A stretch of DNA of 26,916 bases from a virus. The notes under the pieces are model-generated. The model searched no databases. It was not told the origin of the DNA and saw only the letters and a program-made list of their open reading frames with translations. Below are positions 147 to 22,499 of the stretch, in pieces. The stretch is taken from the IMG/VR virus record IMGVR_UViG_3300032308_002408, positions 1 through 26,916 of that record; one strand, written 5' to 3'. Position 1 is the first letter of the stretch. The number at the start of each line of letters is the position of its first letter. The position numbers and the translations under genes were made by a program.

Positions 147-471
147 GGCTAGGCGTGCTCGTGATGGGGACACGGTGTATTTGACTGTTCCTGTGCCGGG
201 GTGGTTGAAGAATGATTTGGTGGATTTGGCTGTGTTGCGGGAGTTGTCGTTTCAGAGACTTGTGGGCTTGTTGCTTGTGAATGGTGTTCGGGATGCGGAG
301 GGTCGGGCTTTGTTGGAGGTTTCGGATCCTGTTGAGCCTTTGTCTGGGGTTGTGGCTTATTTGCGGGGTGAGCGGAGGTTGGAGCCTTGTGGTTTGCCGT
401 CTTGTGATAAGAAGCCTGTTGAGGTTTTGGGGTCTTCTTTTTGTGATACTTGTGGGGTTTGTTTAAGATAG
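136..471 (+). CDS. Small protein with RHH-like segment and C-terminal cysteine cluster
   Basis: This 111-residue protein starts at ATG 136, inside the end of the preceding gene. The open frame extends further upstream, but that stretch overlaps the other gene and encodes an unlikely Leu/Cys-rich leader, so I chose the internal start. Residues about 13-45 (VYLTVPVPGWLKNDL, then a helical SFQRLVGLLLVNG) repeat the strand-helix-helix logic of the gene before it. The C-terminus carries four cysteines as CGLPSC and CDTC, spaced like a small zinc site. It may be a regulator that pairs with its neighbour. The gene runs convergently into the WhiB gene, with which it shares 9 bp. I do not recognise a named family. 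Confidence 0.6.
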   Translation: MGFEARRARDGDTVYLTVPVPGWLKNDLVDLAVLRELSFQRLVGLLLVNGVRDAEGRALLEVSDPVEPLSGVVAYLRGERRLEPCGLPSCDKKPVEVLGSSFCDTCGVCLR

Positions 472-777
472 GTCCCACATTTGGGAGATGGATGGGCGTT
501 TTGGTTTGATGCCTCGGCGTTTTTGTTCTGCGGCTAACTGTCTGCTTGTTAAGCCTGCCCATACTCCGTGCATGTCTATCGGGTGATATTCTAAGGCTTC
601 TTTGAGGCATTGTGGGCGTACGGTGCAGTGTGCGCATATTTCTCTTGCTTGGAGGATGTAGGTGATGTCTTTGTGGTGTTGGGGGAACATGAGGTTTGTT
701 TTTCCTCGGCAGGCTGCTTGGTTTTGCCAGCGTTTTGTTTGTGTATCGTCTTGGGGTTTGTGGTTTTGTTGTTTCAT
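463..777 (-). CDS. whiB-like: WhiB-family iron-sulfur transcription factor
   Basis: This 104-residue protein has the full WhiB signature. C23 lies in ACRGK, followed by C48-x2-C51-x5-C57, which together bind a 4Fe-4S cluster. The G[VI]WAG turn is at 71-75 (GVWAG), and a basic tail (KRRGIKPKRP) would contact DNA. WhiB proteins are confined to Actinobacteria and their phages, where they bind the primary sigma factor and redirect host transcription. Phage versions such as WhiB of TM4 act against their host counterpart and can cause superinfection exclusion. Its ATG overlaps the stop of the proteasome-like gene by 4 bp (ATGA), so the two are translated together. Family assignment is firm; its regulatory target here is unknown. 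Confidence 0.95.
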   Translation of the reverse strand: MKQQNHKPQDDTQTKRWQNQAACRGKTNLMFPQHHKDITYILQAREICAHCTVRPQCLKEALEYHPIDMHGVWAGLTSRQLAAEQKRRGIKPKRPSISQMWDLS

Positions 778-1397
778 TTAGGTTTATCCGTTTTTTGTTG
801 TGTTTGTTGGATGTGGGTGTGGTACGGGTTGCCTGTGTTGGGGTCGTATTTGCTGGCTGTTGCGAGTGCTTTGATGGCATGTTTTTTGGCTTGGGCAGGG
901 TTTTTGGCTGGTGGCATGTTGTGTAATGCCCCTAACGCATAGGCTGATCCTGTGCCGAGGGCGTAGATTCCTGTGGTGTCTGTGAACCATGAATAGTCGC
1001 CGTCTATCAAATAGATGGTTTGGTTGACTGCTACGAGCATTTCGGAGTCATGTTCGGCTTTGTTGCTGTTGGTGTTTGCTTCGTTTACGGTGTACCCGTT
1101 TTGTTCAAACATTTGTCGGATAGCGGGGATCAGTTTGTTGGTAACAAACTCATCAAGTTTCTTACCCCTCAAGGTGGGTGGGCAGACTGGTGGGGTGAGA
1201 GTATGGGTCAGTAAGTTAATAGCCCTTAGATCTCCTGCTGTACCGATCAGATACTTCCCGTTCACAGCAATCTTAGAAGTCTCAGGTTTTAGCGTATTCA
1301 CCTGATAACCCACCCCATTACTATCCACAGAAGTAATACGAGTATCCCCCGCTATAAGACAATAACCATCACCTTGGATACCTACGATTGTTGTCAT
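774..1397 (-). CDS. Proteasome beta-subunit-like Ntn hydrolase
   Basis: This 207-residue protein begins Met-Thr-Thr-Ile-Val-Gly, so removing Met exposes a threonine nucleophile without a propeptide. In mature numbering D17 is in place (AGDTRIT). The Lys33 equivalent is probably K41 (ETSKIAV), displaced by about eight residues. Further landmarks are GTAGD after the next strand, GTGSAYALGAL for the Ser129 loop, and a YDPNTGNP segment for the Asp166 loop. The length matches HslV and 20S beta subunits. Actinobacteria often have a 20S proteasome, so a phage copy could form its own barrel, join host rings or compete with them. No unfoldase (HslU, Mpa/ARC) is visible here. The start has no clear Shine-Dalgarno. 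It is followed by whiB with a 4-bp overlap. Family confidence is high; function is inferred. Confidence 0.9.
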   Translation of the reverse strand: MTTIVGIQGDGYCLIAGDTRITSVDSNGVGYQVNTLKPETSKIAVNGKYLIGTAGDLRAINLLTHTLTPPVCPPTLRGKKLDEFVTNKLIPAIRQMFEQNGYTVNEANTNSNKAEHDSEMLVAVNQTIYLIDGDYSWFTDTTGIYALGTGSAYALGALHNMPPAKNPAQAKKHAIKALATASKYDPNTGNPYHTHIQQTQQKTDKPK

Positions 1398-1462: not shown

Positions 1463-1747
1463 TTAAAGGTTGATCGGATGGATAATGATCGGGGTTTGTT
1501 CCCCAACCCAAGCCCCTGCAACATTGAAGTCAATGTATTCTTCGGCTTCTTCATAGGACATTCCGTCTCGGAGCATGAGGGTTTCAGCCATAAGTGGGTA
1601 CGAGTACACCGCTAATGGTGGTTCGTTCATTCGTTGTGTGGTTCCGAGGAACGCATGTTCAAAGCCGTCCGCTAGGAGCACTCCTTGATCCATGGCTTCA
1701 AGGTAGGTTTGGATGTCATCTACCGTGTAGTTGGGTTGCCAGTTCAT
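1463..1747 (-). CDS. Conserved small phage protein with GAWVGEQTP motif
   Basis: This 94-residue acidic protein starts at ATG 1747, which overlaps the stop of the metallophosphoesterase gene as ATGA. A start seven codons earlier is possible but would lengthen the overlap. The segment LADGFEHAFLGTTQRMNEPPLAVY, then METLMLRDGMSYEEAEEYI, then FNVAGAWVGEQTPIII-like residues, matches a pattern I remember in many phage early-region hypothetical proteins (a target, then a GMxxEEAxE helix, then GAWVGExTP). No catalytic motif is visible and no function is known to me. It sits between a nuclease-like protein and the proteasome-like peptidase, with 65 bp before the latter. Confidence 0.8.
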   Translation of the reverse strand: MNWQPNYTVDDIQTYLEAMDQGVLLADGFEHAFLGTTQRMNEPPLAVYSYPLMAETLMLRDGMSYEEAEEYIDFNVAGAWVGEQTPIIIHPINL

Positions 1748-2952
1748 AGGACTGCCATATCTGACCAACCCTTGGGGTCATGGTTTCCTACAAGGAATGT
1801 GAGTGTTCCCGGTGTTGACCAGTTGCCACTCATGTCTGTATACCATTTGGAGCCACCGTCATTTGATGGGCATTGGAAACGGTACCAGGGTCCGAAGTCT
1901 TGAACTTGGAGGTGATGTTTGTGGGCTGTAACCCAAATATCGGGTTCGCGTCCTTCTTCACGGAGGATCTTGATTGACTGTCCGCGTAGCCATTCTACTT
2001 CTTTGCCACTGATCTTGTGCCCATGAGTGAAAGCCACTTTGACTCCTGACAGGACTGAGGTGGTGATCATCTCGTCATGGGGAATATTCCATTTAAGTTT
2101 ATCTGTTTCTGGTCTGCCGTCTAATACTCGTTTGACAGCATCGGTGAGGAAACCGCCTGCGTTATCAGAGTCACTTGTTACGGCTTTACCGCCTCTTCGC
2201 ATCCATTCGCCATGGTTACAAAGAACGCTGATGAACTCTGCCTCTTCGGCTAAAGGAGATAACTGTCGGATTCCTTGCGCCCAAAGGTCAATAGCCAACA
2301 ACAATTGTTGACGTTGTGTGAGTTCTACCGTGAATAACTGGCTGGCATAGTTTCCATCGCATCCTTCAACAGGGTCACCCATGTTGACGATGGCGATCTT
2401 TTCAATGTTGCGCCCGATCTTGCGTAAGTCTTTGACTCGTTGGATCGTTGCCTGATAACTATCTATGATTCTTTCAACTGTGGCATCAGTTCCACCGCCA
2501 GCGGATTTGCCTAACTGCTGATCTGCCCAACAGACCACAAGGGTTGAACCTTTTTCTGTTGATATCGGTGTAACAGTTTTGGGGACAGACTTCCATTTTT
2601 GAACATATGTTCGTATGTTGTCTATCTCAGTGTCGGGTAAAGCGGTCAAGTTTTTGCGTTTAAAGCGTGCCTTATATGAGTAAAGCCAGATGATATCGCG
2701 GTCACCGTTTTCTAGTCTTTTGGATGACTGCCATTTGGACATTCGGACTGTGTCGTCAACTATCTCAAAAATGTCTGGATCTAAACCGAATCCTCGGAGT
2801 ACAGCATTCCAGTCGCCACCCATTTCTGTTGGCATTGCCCCTGTGGATAACTCTCCGCCGTCTAAGCCGATTTCTGCCCAAGCGGTTTCGCCTTTCGGGT
2901 TGCCGTTGGCATCATGGGAGATGTCGTTGAGTTTGCTTCCGAGGTTGCTCAT
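1744..2952 (-). CDS. Metallophosphoesterase-like phosphatase or nuclease
   Basis: This 402-residue protein has an N-terminal DNA-binding-like region (about 1-130) and a calcineurin-type phosphoesterase core. Metal-binding motifs appear in order: D144-x-Q146 in WADQQLGK, G192-D193 in GDPVEG, N246-H247 in CNHGE, H310-G-H312 in THGHK, and the AHKHH segment at 343-347. The first motif has Gln where the usual D-x-H histidine stands, which may change metal binding. Relatives in actinobacteriophages are usually annotated only as metallophosphoesterase, and an Mre11/SbcD-like role on DNA is possible. It is in the middle of an operon, with ATGA overlaps on both sides. Fold assignment is strong; substrate is unknown. 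Confidence 0.85.
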   Translation of the reverse strand: MSNLGSKLNDISHDANGNPKGETAWAEIGLDGGELSTGAMPTEMGGDWNAVLRGFGLDPDIFEIVDDTVRMSKWQSSKRLENGDRDIIWLYSYKARFKRKNLTALPDTEIDNIRTYVQKWKSVPKTVTPISTEKGSTLVVCWADQQLGKSAGGGTDATVERIIDSYQATIQRVKDLRKIGRNIEKIAIVNMGDPVEGCDGNYASQLFTVELTQRQQLLLAIDLWAQGIRQLSPLAEEAEFISVLCNHGEWMRRGGKAVTSDSDNAGGFLTDAVKRVLDGRPETDKLKWNIPHDEMITTSVLSGVKVAFTHGHKISGKEVEWLRGQSIKILREEGREPDIWVTAHKHHLQVQDFGPWYRFQCPSNDGGSKWYTDMSGNWSTPGTLTFLVGNHDPKGWSDMAVL

Positions 2953-3245
2953 TTGCTTGCTCCTAAATTGTTAGGGAAACAGAAACATGCTGTGTGTCCT
3001 TCTTGTCGGAAACATTCACGCTTTTGGTTGATGGTTGTTCTTGATATTGAGAAACCTTCATCTATTAGTGCTCTGTGTATTGCAGAGTTTGATGCAGGTG
3101 ATTGAAGTGCGTTGATGAGCGCTACTTGTGTTTCGGGCTCTAATTGCTTGTGTATTTTGCCTATTGGGCATGGTGCGCTTACTGTTTTGGATAACTGTGC
3201 GAGCGTGCCGAGCAGGTTGCTTTTGGACTTCTCTTGACTAGCCAT
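2949..3245 (-). CDS. Small helix-turn-helix DNA-binding protein
   Basis: This 98-residue protein is the first gene of the minus-strand operon. A good ribosome site (GACAGGAGAACAC) precedes the ATG at 3245. The core at about 36-78 (LEPETQVALINALQSP, then SNSAIHRALIDEGFSISRTTINQKR) reads as helices ending in a recognition helix. It resembles small phage proteins that discriminate an 'elongated versus compact' HTH and some terminase-small-like or RuvC-associated DNA-binding proteins. Four cysteines (residues 26, 78, 86, 88) are present but not in a clean zinc pattern. It may regulate its own divergent promoter. Its stop overlaps the next ATG by 4 bp. Confidence 0.7.
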   Translation of the reverse strand: MASQEKSKSNLLGTLAQLSKTVSAPCPIGKIHKQLEPETQVALINALQSPASNSAIHRALIDEGFSISRTTINQKRECFRQEGHTACFCFPNNLGASK

Positions 3246-5625: not shown

Positions 5626-5871
5626 TTATGGCTCAATAAAAATGCATTCCCCCGGGCATTCCTCAGCAGCCTCAATCACATCACTAAGACGATCTTCTGC
5701 GAAAGAAGCCAAACCATCGGCTCCTTGTGGGTTCCCCACAGCGTCCGCATAAATCTTGTCCCCTTCTTTCACATACGCAAGACCGTCGGGCATCATGTGG
5801 AAAACATCTGGGGCTATCTCTGCGCATAGACCATCTCCCGTACACAAGTCCTGATCAATCCAAACTCGCAT
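5626..5871 (-). CDS. Small ferredoxin, 3Fe-4S type
   Basis: This 81-residue protein has the layout of actinobacterial 3Fe-4S ferredoxins. C10-x5-C16 lies in CTGDGLC, followed by APDVF, a beta-rich middle, and C72-P73 in a helix (EAAEECPGECIFIE). C76 is an extra cysteine four residues later. Such ferredoxins pass electrons to cytochrome P450s or oxygenases. No P450 or reductase gene is in this window, so a host partner is likely if the protein is active. Its ATG shares bases with the stop of the preceding membrane-protein gene (TAATG). A phage ferredoxin may serve as an auxiliary metabolic gene; that is inference. Confidence 0.88.
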   Translation of the reverse strand: MRVWIDQDLCTGDGLCAEIAPDVFHMMPDGLAYVKEGDKIYADAVGNPQGADGLASFAEDRLSDVIEAAEECPGECIFIEP

Positions 5872-6379: not shown

Positions 6380-6638
6380 TCGCCTTTGCCTTTGCAGGTG
6401 CTTTTTTATCAACCTTGTTGAAAACATCGTTGATTTCAGAACTTGAAAGTTTTCCATCTTCAAGAAATGCGCGTGACAAGCCTTCAATCACGACTGCAAC
6501 CCCTGCAATTCCAGCCATGAAGACAGCCTTGAGTACCGGAACACCAGCGATAGTTCCTGCACCGATAACACCAAGACCAGATGCGGCGAAAGTAGCAAGA
6601 ATTCTAAGCAGGACATTGACTAGTAATTCCTTTTTCAT
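6366..6638 (-). CDS. Phage holin-like membrane protein
   Basis: This 90-residue protein has two hydrophobic helices, about 8-31 (NVLLRILATFAASGLGVIGA) and 33-54 (GVPVLKAVFMAGIAGVAVVI), followed by a charged soluble tail (LEDGKLSSSEINDVF) and a Lys/Ala-rich end. This matches small class II or r1t-type holins of actinobacteriophages. It lies 613 bp downstream of the endolysin in the same operon. Position and topology support holin; two other small membrane proteins in the cluster compete for that role. ATGA overlap with the upstream zinc-ribbon gene. Confidence 0.72.
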   Translation of the reverse strand: MKKELLVNVLLRILATFAASGLGVIGAGTIAGVPVLKAVFMAGIAGVAVVIEGLSRAFLEDGKLSSSEINDVFNKVDKKAPAKAKANEAV

Positions 6639-6865
6639 TGTTGAACCTCGTTAATTCGCTTATGTGAAAGAACGCATCCAACACCACAGTAAAGAACAGA
6701 TTTGTATTCACGAACCATTCCTTTGCCACGCGAACTACCACAAGAAGGGCAAGTGTGTTTTACGCCTTTGTAACCGATGTACATAACGTTGATCCCGGTA
6801 TCAACCTTTGGGGTTGGTGGAACAGCAGAAGATGATGCTGGTTTCTTCGCTGGTTTCTTGCTCAT
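6635..6865 (-). CDS. Small zinc-ribbon-like protein
   Basis: This 76-residue protein has a Lys/Pro/Ala-rich disordered N-terminus (about 1-20) and two cysteine knuckles, CPSCG at about 39-43 and YCGVGC at about 59-64, spaced to bind one zinc. A basic patch (SSRGKGMVREYK) sits between them. Short phage proteins of this kind are common and their function is not known. It is coupled by ATGA overlaps on both sides to membrane-protein genes, which is an unusual setting for a nucleic-acid-binding fold. Confidence 0.65.
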   Translation of the reverse strand: MSKKPAKKPASSSAVPPTPKVDTGINVMYIGYKGVKHTCPSCGSSRGKGMVREYKSVLYCGVGCVLSHKRINEVQQ

Positions 6866-12846: not shown

Positions 12847-13992
12847 ATGGCAGGTGCGGGAGTTCGTCTATTTACTGCTGGTAGCCAACTATTGGCTTCG
12901 CAGATAAATGACTATTTAATGGATCAGGTTGTCGCCTACTTCACGGACAGCGCTGCGCGTGATGCCGCTTTTGGCGGTGTTGGCGAACCGTCCTTAACCC
13001 CCGGAAAAATCTGCTACCTGTTTTCTGACAACAAACTTTACCTTTACGGCAACGATAATCAGTGGACTGAAATCGGTGCACAAATAGATGACCTAGAAGT
13101 GACCACAGGAAAACTTGCTGATGGTGCTGTAACTTCAGCAAAAATTCTTGACGGAACAATTGTTAACGTAGACATTAACGCTTCAGCCGCTATAGCGCTA
13201 ACAAAACTTGCCACAGGTACCATCGGTACGGTTGTCCTTCACAACGCTTCTGGTGTCCCCACCGCGACAGCCCTTTCGGGTGATGTGACAGTGAACTCTT
13301 CCGGTGTAACAGCGATTGGATCTGGAGTGGTAGTAAACGCAGATATAAACGCTTCTGCTGCAATTGATAAGACCAAGATTTCAGGAACTGCAATTACTGC
13401 TGGTGACACTGGAACCGTGACCTCAACGATGATTGCCGACGGAACAATCGTCAACGGGGATATCAATGCTTCTGCGGCGATTGCCCACAGCAAACTTGCC
13501 AACGCAACTGCTGGTCAGGTTCTCCTTGGTACTACAACAACTGGCGTCGTAACAGCAACAACGGTTACTGGTGATGTAACTATAACTGGTGCTGGTGTAA
13601 CCGCTATAGGCTCTGGAGTCGTCGTCAATGCCGACATCAGCACAACCGCTGCAATTGAACTAGGGAAATTAGCAGACGCAACAATTGACATCAAAACAGG
13701 AAACTACACACTTCAACTCACAGACAAGAACAAGTTCATCAAAATGAACGTAACAAGCACAGCAAATACTGTCACCGTTCCACTTGACTCAACAGTCACC
13801 TTCCCTGAAGGCGCACAAATTCATATTATTCAATACGGAACAGGCAAGACGCAAATTGTTGGTGCCTCGGGGTCGGTAATACTTTATTCAACTCCGGGCG
13901 CTTACTTGCGTGCACAATATTCATCGGCAACTTTATTGAAGTGCGCCGCGGCGAACACTTGGATGCTGATGGGTGACTTGAGTGCTTCATGA
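12847..13992 (+). CDS. Tail-fibre protein with repeated beta segments
   Basis: This 381-residue protein begins with a phage-tail attachment-like segment (VRLFTAGSQLLASQINDYL, then QVVAYFTDSAARDAAF), has a short Trp-containing motif (YGNDNQWTEIG), then a low-complexity region with repeated DGTIVNxDINASAAI and SGDVTVxxxGVTAIGSG units (about 90-280). A C-terminal beta domain (about 285-381: NYTLQLTDKNKFIKMNV to NTWMLMGDLSAS) resembles fibre tips of T4-like and other aquatic phages. Such repeats usually form trimeric fibre shafts. The next gene overlaps by 4 bp. It reads opposite to the main tail cluster. Confidence 0.82.
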   Translation: MAGAGVRLFTAGSQLLASQINDYLMDQVVAYFTDSAARDAAFGGVGEPSLTPGKICYLFSDNKLYLYGNDNQWTEIGAQIDDLEVTTGKLADGAVTSAKILDGTIVNVDINASAAIALTKLATGTIGTVVLHNASGVPTATALSGDVTVNSSGVTAIGSGVVVNADINASAAIDKTKISGTAITAGDTGTVTSTMIADGTIVNGDINASAAIAHSKLANATAGQVLLGTTTTGVVTATTVTGDVTITGAGVTAIGSGVVVNADISTTAAIELGKLADATIDIKTGNYTLQLTDKNKFIKMNVTSTANTVTVPLDSTVTFPEGAQIHIIQYGTGKTQIVGASGSVILYSTPGAYLRAQYSSATLLKCAAANTWMLMGDLSAS

Positions 13993-16428: not shown

Positions 16429-17094
16429 TTATCCAACAACCTGTGTTGCCCCAGATGCAAAAATCCTTCGTTCTGGAATGAGCGGGTGTTTAGTTATGGA
16501 GACATCTTTCAACCCTGCCATCTCCATCATTGCTTTAACTCCGTTAAAATTGGGAACATTCCAATTTGAGTTGTCATTATTCAGAGAATCATCAGGTATC
16601 AAATAGAGTACTGGTTCGCTCAACCCATCATCTCTGTACTCGGTTTCTATAACAACTCTTTCAATTGAACGCTTACTTACTCGCTCAATTAGGGCAATTG
16701 GGTTCTTGACGTGGTAGGTCACCCCAAGGAGTAAAACAATGTCAAACTTTTCACCATCTGTTGGGAGTTCCTCTGCTTTGCAGATAAGTTCATCAACATT
16801 TGAATTAAGTTGATTTTTAACAAAATCAAATGATTCCTTTTTACCCCAACCAAAGTTCCCCCATGAGTGCCAGTCGCTTGCCACTACCCTCTTAGCCCCA
16901 TGCCGTTCAGCAGCAAATGAAAAATAACCATCCCACGCACCGACATCAAGAACAGTTTTACTCAAAAAATTGCAGTGTTCTAAAACAGCGGATTCCTCTG
17001 CTCTAAGTAGTTCAAGAGATTTTCCACCTGGGGTGACAGTCCCATCAGGGAGTTCAATTGAATGCCAAAAAGGTAAATCATTAGGGCTACTCAT
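16429..17094 (-). CDS. SAM-dependent methyltransferase, CmoB-like
   Basis: This 221-residue protein opens with FWHSIELPDGTVTPG (9-23), which I recall as the signature of the CmoB/mo5U34-methyltransferase-like branch (WyHxIxLPDGxxTPG). Motif I is LDVGAWDGYFSF (49-60). Acidic residue D74 (ASDWHSW) closes the second strand, and FDIVLLLGVTYHVKNP is the motif IV region. True CmoB uses carboxy-SAM on tRNA; many phage and cell-surface cluster members instead methylate sugars. Here it is the last gene of a glycan-enzyme run, coupled by ATGA to the fused glycosyltransferase, so a sugar acceptor is more likely. Confidence 0.87.
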   Translation of the reverse strand: MSSPNDLPFWHSIELPDGTVTPGGKSLELLRAEESAVLEHCNFLSKTVLDVGAWDGYFSFAAERHGAKRVVASDWHSWGNFGWGKKESFDFVKNQLNSNVDELICKAEELPTDGEKFDIVLLLGVTYHVKNPIALIERVSKRSIERVVIETEYRDDGLSEPVLYLIPDDSLNNDNSNWNVPNFNGVKAMMEMAGLKDVSITKHPLIPERRIFASGATQVVG

Positions 17095-20613: not shown

Positions 20614-22092
20614 CTATTTATTCTCTTCTAGTTCTTTGACTCTCTGGGACAATTCTTGAATTGCTTTTACGAGAACTGGTACTAGGCGACCGTATGATGC
20701 TTCTAGTTTTTCTGGGTTTTCTCGGTATGTGAGGGCAAGAACATCATGGGCATCAAGTGCATCTTCTGCTTCAGCAAGTTCTTGAGCAATAAACCCAATA
20801 TCCTTAACGCCGACTTTGCCTCCGTCACGCATGTTCCAAGCGAATTGAACTGGACGCAACTCATTTATAAGGTCAAGACCAAAATTGATGTCTTCAACAT
20901 CTTGCTTGTCACGGCTATCGGAAAGCGATGTAATTGATGTAACTTGGCAACGGAGTGCTGTTACATTGTTGTCGCCTAATGTTATTTCATAGTCTACAGA
21001 TGCGGAAGATGGCTGTGCACCTGCACCAATTAAAACATTTCTTATACCAGTGGTAATGTTTAGACCTGCCTGATACCCAATCGCCGTATTGTTTTGACCA
21101 GTGGTCACACCATTAAGTGCTTGTGTCCCGACAGCGGTATTTCCGTCACCAGTTGTGTTCTGCCCAAGCGAACCAAAACCAATACCAACATTTGAAAAAC
21201 CAGTTGTGTTTGCAAGTAATGCGTATTGACCAAATGCACAGTTGGAACCACCAGTGGTATTGTTTTGAAGAGCAACTTCGCCCATAGCGGTATTATTTCC
21301 GCCTGTGGTGTTGTTTTGAAGCGCACGATTCCCAAGAGCGCTATTTTCTACTCCAGTCGTGTTTGAGTAAAGGGAAAGTTTACCAATCGCAGTGTTTTTT
21401 GCGCCAGTTGTATTAGAACTTAGGGAACTACTTCCAACAGCGGTATTGTCAATTCCAGTTGTGTTCAATGAAAGAGAACCACTTCCAACAGCGGTATTTT
21501 CACTTCCAGTGGTGTTAGTGGTTAAAGAAGAATTACCAACAGCAGTGTTGGAACTACCAGTTGTGTTTTTACTAAGAGAAGAATTACCAACAGCAGTGTT
21601 GGAACTACCAGTCGTATTAAGTTCAAGAGAACTCCAACCAAAGGCAGTACTATTATTTCCAGTTGTATTTTTAGAAAGCGAAGCCTGTCCAACAGCCGTA
21701 TTGTAACTACCTTCGGTGTTGAGTTGTAGAGAACCACTTCCAACAGCGGTATTTCCGCTTCCAATGGTGTTGAGACTTAATGAGGATGAACCAATTGCAG
21801 TATTGTCAAATGTAGTTGTGTGGCTAGATAACGAATAACTACCAACAGCGGTATTACGACCACCAGTTGTATTAGAACTTAGGGAACTCCTTCCAACAGC
21901 AGTATTGTTATTGCCAGTGGTGTTGTTTTGAAGAGAACTCAGCCCAACAGCAGTATTAGAAAGAGTGGTGGTTGTGCCAAAAACAGTTCCCCTCACTGTT
22001 GGCGTCGCCTCTGGAACCGAATCCTCTACAATTTGCTCAACATCTGCGGTCTGGCTTGCCGTCAGTTTCTCTGGTTTGATATTAAAACTCAT
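20614..22092 (-). CDS. Tail fibre with 17-residue repeats and S74 intramolecular chaperone
   Basis: This 492-residue protein has a short N-terminal region (1-45), then 18 tandem 17-residue repeats (NTAVGxxSLxxNTTGxx, residues 46-351), a beta segment, and a C-terminal S74 endosialidase-type chaperone domain from about 391. The auto-cleavage serine is in SDSRDK (S391-D-S-R-D-K), followed by GFIAQELAEA and an end helix YGRLVPVLVKAIQELSQRVKELE. S74 domains trimerise the fibre and are cleaved off. The repeat resembles head repeats of trimeric adhesins, so the shaft is probably a beta-roll. It overlaps the next gene by ATGA and ends the structural part of the operon. Confidence 0.93.
   Translation of the reverse strand: MSFNIKPEKLTASQTADVEQIVEDSVPEATPTVRGTVFGTTTTLSNTAVGLSSLQNNTTGNNNTAVGRSSLSSNTTGGRNTAVGSYSLSSHTTTFDNTAIGSSSLSLNTIGSGNTAVGSGSLQLNTEGSYNTAVGQASLSKNTTGNNSTAFGWSSLELNTTGSSNTAVGNSSLSKNTTGSSNTAVGNSSLTTNTTGSENTAVGSGSLSLNTTGIDNTAVGSSSLSSNTTGAKNTAIGKLSLYSNTTGVENSALGNRALQNNTTGGNNTAMGEVALQNNTTGGSNCAFGQYALLANTTGFSNVGIGFGSLGQNTTGDGNTAVGTQALNGVTTGQNNTAIGYQAGLNITTGIRNVLIGAGAQPSSASVDYEITLGDNNVTALRCQVTSITSLSDSRDKQDVEDINFGLDLINELRPVQFAWNMRDGGKVGVKDIGFIAQELAEAEDALDAHDVLALTYRENPEKLEASYGRLVPVLVKAIQELSQRVKELEENK
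21040..21957 (-). repeat. Protein-level tandem 17-residue fibre repeats (18 copies)
   Basis: Each 51-bp unit encodes NTAVGxxSLxxNTTGxx or a close variant. The first and the last five copies are more divergent; the middle ones are close enough at DNA level for recombination to change copy number. Confidence 0.88.
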
Positions 22093-22499
22093 TGCGAAAT
22101 CTCCGTTCCAAAAACAGTAAACCCAAACTTATCCGCAGTTGAAGGAAAAACATAAACTCTGTCACCAGCGGAAAGCGTAAACTTGTGGCTAATCATCTCA
22201 AAATCATTAGCCGAAACTGGCTGGTCCCATTTAACATGGTGTTTTAATCCAAGAGTTTCACCAAAAGGAACAATAGCGAGGTCATAGGTGCGCTCAACAA
22301 CATCGTGGTTAACAGCAAAAATTGATGAAACAATCGCTTGCTTGCCAGATGGAACGTTGTAGATAACCGTTGGCTCAAGTGTTTCAACAACAGTTTCACC
22401 ACCACCGCCGTAGTAGTAGCCACTACCACCACCACCTGGCACGGTTGTCTGCGTCAAACCGATATACATTTGACCCAAAATCTTGTATGCGAGGCTCAT
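22089..22499 (-). CDS. Small tail-tip protein, un-inserted form of the neighbouring propeller protein
   Basis: This 136-residue protein begins AYKILGQMYIGLTQTTVPGG, has a Gly/Tyr-rich loop (GSGYYYGGGGE), then YNVPSGKQAIVSSIFAVN, then an end domain (ISHKFTLSAGDRVYVF to GFTVFGTEIS). The same segments, in the same order, make the two ends of the next protein upstream (22496-24025), which carries a large insert in between. This is therefore the short, propeller-free version of the same scaffold. VPSGKQxxVSS is a pattern I recall from fibre-associated phage proteins. It is coupled by ATGA on both sides. Confidence 0.72.
   Translation of the reverse strand: MSLAYKILGQMYIGLTQTTVPGGGGSGYYYGGGGETVVETLEPTVIYNVPSGKQAIVSSIFAVNHDVVERTYDLAIVPFGETLGLKHHVKWDQPVSANDFEMISHKFTLSAGDRVYVFPSTADKFGFTVFGTEISQ

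Follow-up and report, generated by a model that had tools for sequence, protein, structure and literature searches.

Outside the 20S proteasome and HslV (ClpQ), neither substrate nor function is known for most proteasome homologues. BPH exposes its Thr1 through Met removal, has no known dedicated unfoldase and was inactive when given standard substrates (PMC5777263). Two group-I homologues, AAH and PPH, have been reported in phages (Fuchs, Alva and Lupas 2021, PMC8665760); PPH has about 140 aa and is devoid of helix H2, and no Actinobacteria-specific phage was found to carry AAH. Connectase bears an insertion at the S3/S4 segment and is devoid of helices H1/H2 (PMC8665760). The Dishui Lake actinomycetia phage DSL-LC01 (OQ999401) carries a gene labelled ‘ATP-dependent protease subunit HslV’ with a WhiB gene 24 bp downstream, of which the accompanying paper discusses WhiB and does not mention the protease (PMC10611076). 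Here we analyse a comparable locus in the window, i.e. the whole IMG/VR record of 26,916 bp (G+C 44%), and find that the phage branch of proteasome homologues is real, widespread in freshwater phages and so far little discussed.

Fold and family placement of the peptidase

An earlier note, made from the letters of the window, had proposed a proteasome-like peptidase encoded next to a WhiB protein in a phage (Table 1). With respect to the peptidase this reading is borne out by the open reading frame on the minus strand and by profile and model evidence. The product of 774-1397 matches the Pfam family Proteasome (PF00227, E 9.9e-6, above the cut-off) and, over residues 1-203, the phrog_1040 profile ‘peptidase HslV family’ (4e-25). 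Searching solved structures with the single sequence gave weak matches only, and hits to alphaRep, a repeat protein, were dismissed as due to chance. The AlphaFold model, computed with 56 diverse relatives as input, reached a pLDDT of 89.4 and a pTM of 0.85; an earlier run with 13 close sequences (pLDDT 46) was set aside. Foldseek placed BPH first (1.8e-11) and HslV next, and VIA-align likewise ranked BPH first (Z 20.2, rmsd 2.6 A, 176 residues aligned), with a lead over 20S beta subunits of <1 Z unit, which is in the range of a tie. The family profile searched against the PDB returned the same order (BPH 1.4e-8, HslV 4e-8). Both first helices, H1 and H2, are predicted (57-65 and 78-99). We are confident that the product is, as modelled, an alpha-beta-beta-alpha Ntn-hydrolase of the proteasome/HslV/BPH fold, and the structure prediction that the earlier note had suggested as a check matches the solved members of this type.

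Table 1. Features of the co-directional gene run in the window
Feature	Position	Strand	Evidence
98-aa protein (weak phrog_3979); opens the co-directional run and overlaps the phosphoesterase gene by 4 bp	2949..3245	-	ORF list, PHROG
Metallophosphoesterase/exonuclease-like protein (phrog_284), calcineurin-like, 402 aa	1744..2952	-	PHROG, neighbourhood comparison
101-aa protein, phrog_13182, between phosphoesterase and peptidase	1463..1768	-	ORF list, PHROG
Proteasome/HslV/BPH-like threonine peptidase, 207 aa, MTT start	774..1397	-	ORF list, Pfam, PHROG, AlphaFold model, alignment
ATGA stop/start overlap of peptidase and WhiB genes, 4 bp	774..777	-	Sequence; 6/7 near-clade clusters and L086
WhiB-family regulator, 104 aa, four cysteines, GVWAG turn	463..777	-	Pfam, paired-WhiB alignment

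The protein was rejected as an HslV or 20S beta subunit, since it scored far below the curated cut-offs (25-27 bits versus 137-158 for the NCBIfam HslV equivalog, 17-26 bits versus 192-224 for the bacterial and archaeal 20S beta equivalogs), and as PPH on account of its size (207 aa) and the presence of helix H2. When a tree was built together with E. coli HslV and bacterial homologues borne on plasmids, the actinophage clade stood apart (support 96/99). Rhizobial, Streptomyces, Bacillus and other phage proteins form a separate clade (100/98), which, judging from taxonomy, probably includes the AAH of PMC8665760.

Active site, maturation and selection

The proteasome landmarks named in the earlier note (T1, D17 and a displaced Lys33) could be confirmed: Thr1, Asp17, Lys41 and the oxyanion Gly47 are invariant in 56 of 56 peptidase sequences. 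Alignment and strand order suggest that Lys41 occupies the position of Lys33, which looks displaced because the S3/S4 segment is about 7 residues longer in the clade of the window than in the F5-type subfamily (20 versus 13). The other mature-chain equivalents are Thr148 for Ser129 and Asp184 for Asp166; among the 56 sequences the former position holds T or S and the latter D in 49 and N in 7, all of them of the F5-type subfamily. The H2-S7 loop of the family spans 15-22 residues and is on average mildly acidic (-2.3); the model shows it as poorly ordered. Comparison with seven relatives gave a dN/dS of 0.04-0.10, and the peptidase is therefore under strong constraint (purifying selection).

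Removal of Met before Thr is standard, and we infer that the initiator Met of the peptidase is removed so that Thr1 is exposed. This is in line with the Thr exposure expected in the earlier note, and BPH provides a precedent (PMC5777263). The same note had called the absence of a propeptide unusual; this does not hold, as among proteasome homologues propeptides are restricted to proteasome beta and HslV, and doing without one is the rule elsewhere (PMC8665760).

Relatives and host

Within IMG/VR, 530 stretches match the profile of close relatives, with further sets obtained from other seeds, and 34 deposited phage records contain a match. Further members of phrog_1040 come from Escherichia jumbo phage PBECO4, Microbacterium phage Pumpernickel, DSL-LC01 and the phage F5; a Pumpernickel-type query found no relatives in IMG/VR or plasmids. 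The assignment of the window to a phage agrees with its being a whole IMG/VR record and with a 144,873-bp relative that carries portal, HK97-type capsid and terminase genes. F5 (OX376641, registered as ct2KA10, labelled LanE43-AprF5, unannotated) was isolated on ‘Ca. Planktophila’ LanE-43; its peptidase has 178 aa and is encoded between portal and scaffold/capsid genes (L304 17155-17691). Because of the relatives DSL-LC01 and F5, the host of the window is most likely a freshwater actinobacterium. Contigs of lake phages that carry the clade number in the hundreds. A scan of bacterial genomes yielded one contig, in a gammaproteobacterial MAG (L049, JAURLY010000091.1); as it holds phage genes and the same phosphoesterase-peptidase-WhiB order, it was rejected as a bacterial locus and is taken as a mis-binned actinophage.

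Some side observations concern the window and its distant relatives. Pseudoalteromonas phage J2-1 encodes a 388-aa homologue with a C-terminal extension of about 190 aa (L045 4001-5167). The window itself also encodes a 4Fe-4S ferredoxin-like protein (5626-5871; Fer4_15, 4.3e-17) and, at 20614-22092, a protein with many tandem NTAVGSSSLSxNTTG-like repeats, whose C-terminus resembles, by eye, a tail-fibre intramolecular chaperone.

The WhiB gene and the gene neighbourhood

Peptidase and WhiB genes are the last two of five co-directional genes, preceded by a small gene, the phosphoesterase gene and the gene for the 101-aa protein. The WhiB reading, with all four cysteines, is confirmed by a Pfam match (1.7e-14) and a spacing of C-X24-C-X2-C-X5-C. 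The canonical WhiB turn motif is GVWGG; here it is GVWAG. A search of related records for sigma-70 region 4 gave matches over the cut-off in F5 and G008 only, leaving WhiB without an obvious phage sigma partner in the lineage of the window. A promoter scan was uninformative (1 found versus 4.6 expected). In the same relatives, synonymous divergence was clearly lower for WhiB than for the peptidase gene (e.g. dS 0.20 versus 0.76 for L003).

The 4-bp overlap of the two genes reported earlier is indeed present (ATGA) and is kept in all 67-98% identical relatives with DNA covering that spot, while in the L024 group (61-64% identical) the two genes stand 10 bp apart. In the window, however, such overlaps are routine, because eight adjacent gene pairs overlap by exactly 4 bp (774-777, 2949-2952, 6635-6638, 6862-6865, 13989-13992, 17091-17094, 22089-22092 and 22496-22499). 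For a broader comparison, 280 relatives with a recognised start were clustered at 85% identity into 69 clusters (67 in the tree), with 47 clusters in the clade holding the window. WhiB overlaps the peptidase gene by 4 bp in 7 of these 47, lies within 300 bp in 14 more (21/47 cumulatively) and within 1 kb in another 6 (27/47), and is not nearby in 20. The tree requires 10 changes between the paired and the unpaired state, and in phage F5 WhiB is found in another module, on the strand opposite to the peptidase. Conservation of the pair in related phages, as asked for in the earlier note, applies to the overlap among the 67-98% identical relatives; the L024 group lacks the overlap, and the 20 clusters lack a nearby WhiB. 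In most clusters the adjacent WhiB is of one subtype (HKDITYI...DMHGVWAG.TSRQL), and the neighbourhood is therefore real.

Within the clade, no neighbour accompanies the peptidase gene as constantly as the metallophosphoesterase (e.g. L028 2844-3998; L031 2811-4001), which was found upstream in 38/47 clusters, including lineages without WhiB, and often directly abuts or overlaps the peptidase gene (as in L028, L029, L266 and L085). Pairwise distances across the same 25 clusters correlated equally well for HslV-WhiB (r 0.48) and HslV-phosphoesterase (r 0.47), so that special co-evolution of peptidase and WhiB, in excess of that with the phosphoesterase, was rejected. Taken together, the coupling of peptidase and WhiB appears to be ordinary synteny, and a specific functional unit is weakly supported. 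In Ochrobactrum phage vB_OspM_OC (L048 3001-4379) the gene of a distant homologue, annotated as ‘proteosome component protein’, lies 5 bp upstream of one for a serine/threonine protein phosphatase, an arrangement that possibly represents the same kind of phosphoesterase association.

Search for an unfoldase

In 8 related records, which include fragments, nothing matched AAA_2 (HslU/ClpX) above the cut-off, and no unfoldase of the HslU/ClpX/ARC type was found in related phage records. A MoxR-like AAA_5 gene is present in G001, G002, G003, G006, G008 and DSL-LC01. Behind it lies a putative VWA gene in G001 (recognised by eye and without a Pfam match; the two genes together at G001 33986-36315, corresponding to L051 13986-16315) and a ‘cobalamin biosynthesis’ (CobT-like) gene in DSL-LC01 (the two together at L037 9222-12184). 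AAA_5 gave no match in G005, G007 (both fragments) or D'Alembert, all of which carry the peptidase. In F5 the AAA_5 match is sub-threshold; it and the match of the PF00004 search read as RecA-like, going by their sequence, and this is the only ATPase seen in F5. PF00004 had no match in G007 or in Arthrobacter phage Pitbull (complete, 41 kb), which encodes a distant peptidase homologue. The absence of an unfoldase pointed out in the earlier note thus stands for ATPases of the HslU/ClpX/ARC type, but not for AAA+ proteins as a whole, since some such phages encode a MoxR-like member, which could be a partner of the peptidase.

Possible functions

We favour, with moderate confidence, an actinophage group-I proteasome homologue on the HslV/BPH/AAH/PPH side, probably a BPH-like ring peptidase that is independent of an unfoldase and functionally separate from the co-transcribed WhiB. 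Met removal would bare Thr1, and the subunits would form a homo-oligomeric, self-compartmentalising ring that encloses the active sites and whose pore is lined by the loop following helix H2. Such a ring, without a dedicated unfoldase, may in the course of infection cleave peptides as well as proteins that are small or unfolded, be it for amino acid recycling or for the removal of particular host proteins. WhiB would share transcript and expression timing with the peptidase and exert its own, separate effect on transcription in the host. The mixed ring with host 20S subunits that the earlier note had considered was discarded: nothing supports it, and a proteasome of Nanopelagicales is not mentioned in the literature examined.

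Several other roles have to be weighed against this reading. The peptidase might depend on an AAA+ protein in the manner of HslV-HslU, its ATPase being the phage MoxR-like AAA_5 together with the VWA-like protein, or else an unfoldase of the host. The AAA_5 genes and the VWA- or CobT-like genes behind them would fit, as would the ATPase requirement of the group-I relative HslV, but in G001 some 10 kb separate the AAA_5 gene from that of the peptidase, which is on the opposite strand, peptidase carriers without an AAA_5 match exist, as does the RecA-like case of F5, and no MoxR-type ATPase is known to serve as a peptidase partner; we regard this dependence as unlikely. The earlier note had envisaged a takeover unit in which the peptidase remodels the host protein pool and WhiB rewires transcription. 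This is consistent with the overlap conserved in the near clade, with WhiB at ≤300 bp in almost half of the clusters and with the adjoining genes of DSL-LC01 (24-bp gap) at only 40% identity. Given the routine nature of the overlap, the clusters without a neighbouring WhiB, its separate location in F5, the more constant phosphoesterase and the lack of any excess in distance correlation, a special unit of this kind is not supported and seems distinctly improbable.

A capsid or scaffold maturation protease for virion morphogenesis is suggested by F5, where the gene lies among the head genes and no S78 protease was found, and by the L028 lineage, where the peptidase gene precedes portal and scaffold genes. 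For the lineage of the window this role was rejected, because the canonical S78 prohead protease is encoded by G001, the 98% relative, as well as by seven further records, and because some 50 kb lie between peptidase and head genes in G001. It is retained as a competing reading for F5-type phages and is rather a long shot overall. We give very little credence to a specialised transpeptidase or ligase like connectase in place of a protease: the longer S3/S4 segment of the window clade sits where connectase has its insertion, but it is short and modelled as beta strands, not as a two-helix lid, and the helix pair H1/H2 is present. A speculative extension, which we put forward as doubtful at best, is that phosphoesterase, unfoldase-free proteasome-like ring and often WhiB form a conserved infection operon of freshwater actinophages in which the ring destroys specific host regulators. 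If true, these viruses would possess a machine for targeted proteolysis that differs from both HslVU and 20S. As two phages isolated on a cultured ‘Ca. Planktophila’ strain, E7 and F5, hold relatives, the role of an unfoldase-free viral proteasome homologue is experimentally reachable, and this within a bacterial group that ranks among the most abundant in freshwater.

Comparison with known systems

By its profile match the peptidase of the window belongs to phrog_1040, from which its clade differs by the extra S3/S4 segment and a mostly basic C-terminal tail. BPH (PDB 5OVS/5OVT) is the top match in fold and in the PDB profile search, with 20S beta within 1 Z; the peptidase would share with it the baring of Thr1 by Met removal and the lack of a known dedicated unfoldase, and its long H2-S7 loop recalls the long pore loop of BPH. 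Unlike BPH, it is viral, its loop is only mildly acidic, and the two are about 20% identical. With HslV it has in common the fold, the MTT start with presumed Met removal and T1/D17/K33. It differs from HslV in its scores far below the equivalog cut-offs, in the lack of an HslU match in related phage records and in retaining D-x-x-T/S-G (Asp166, Ser169, Gly170), a motif of proteasome beta. DSL-LC01 shows the same arrangement of an HslV-annotated gene followed by WhiB, its peptidase being 40% identical to the protein of the window.
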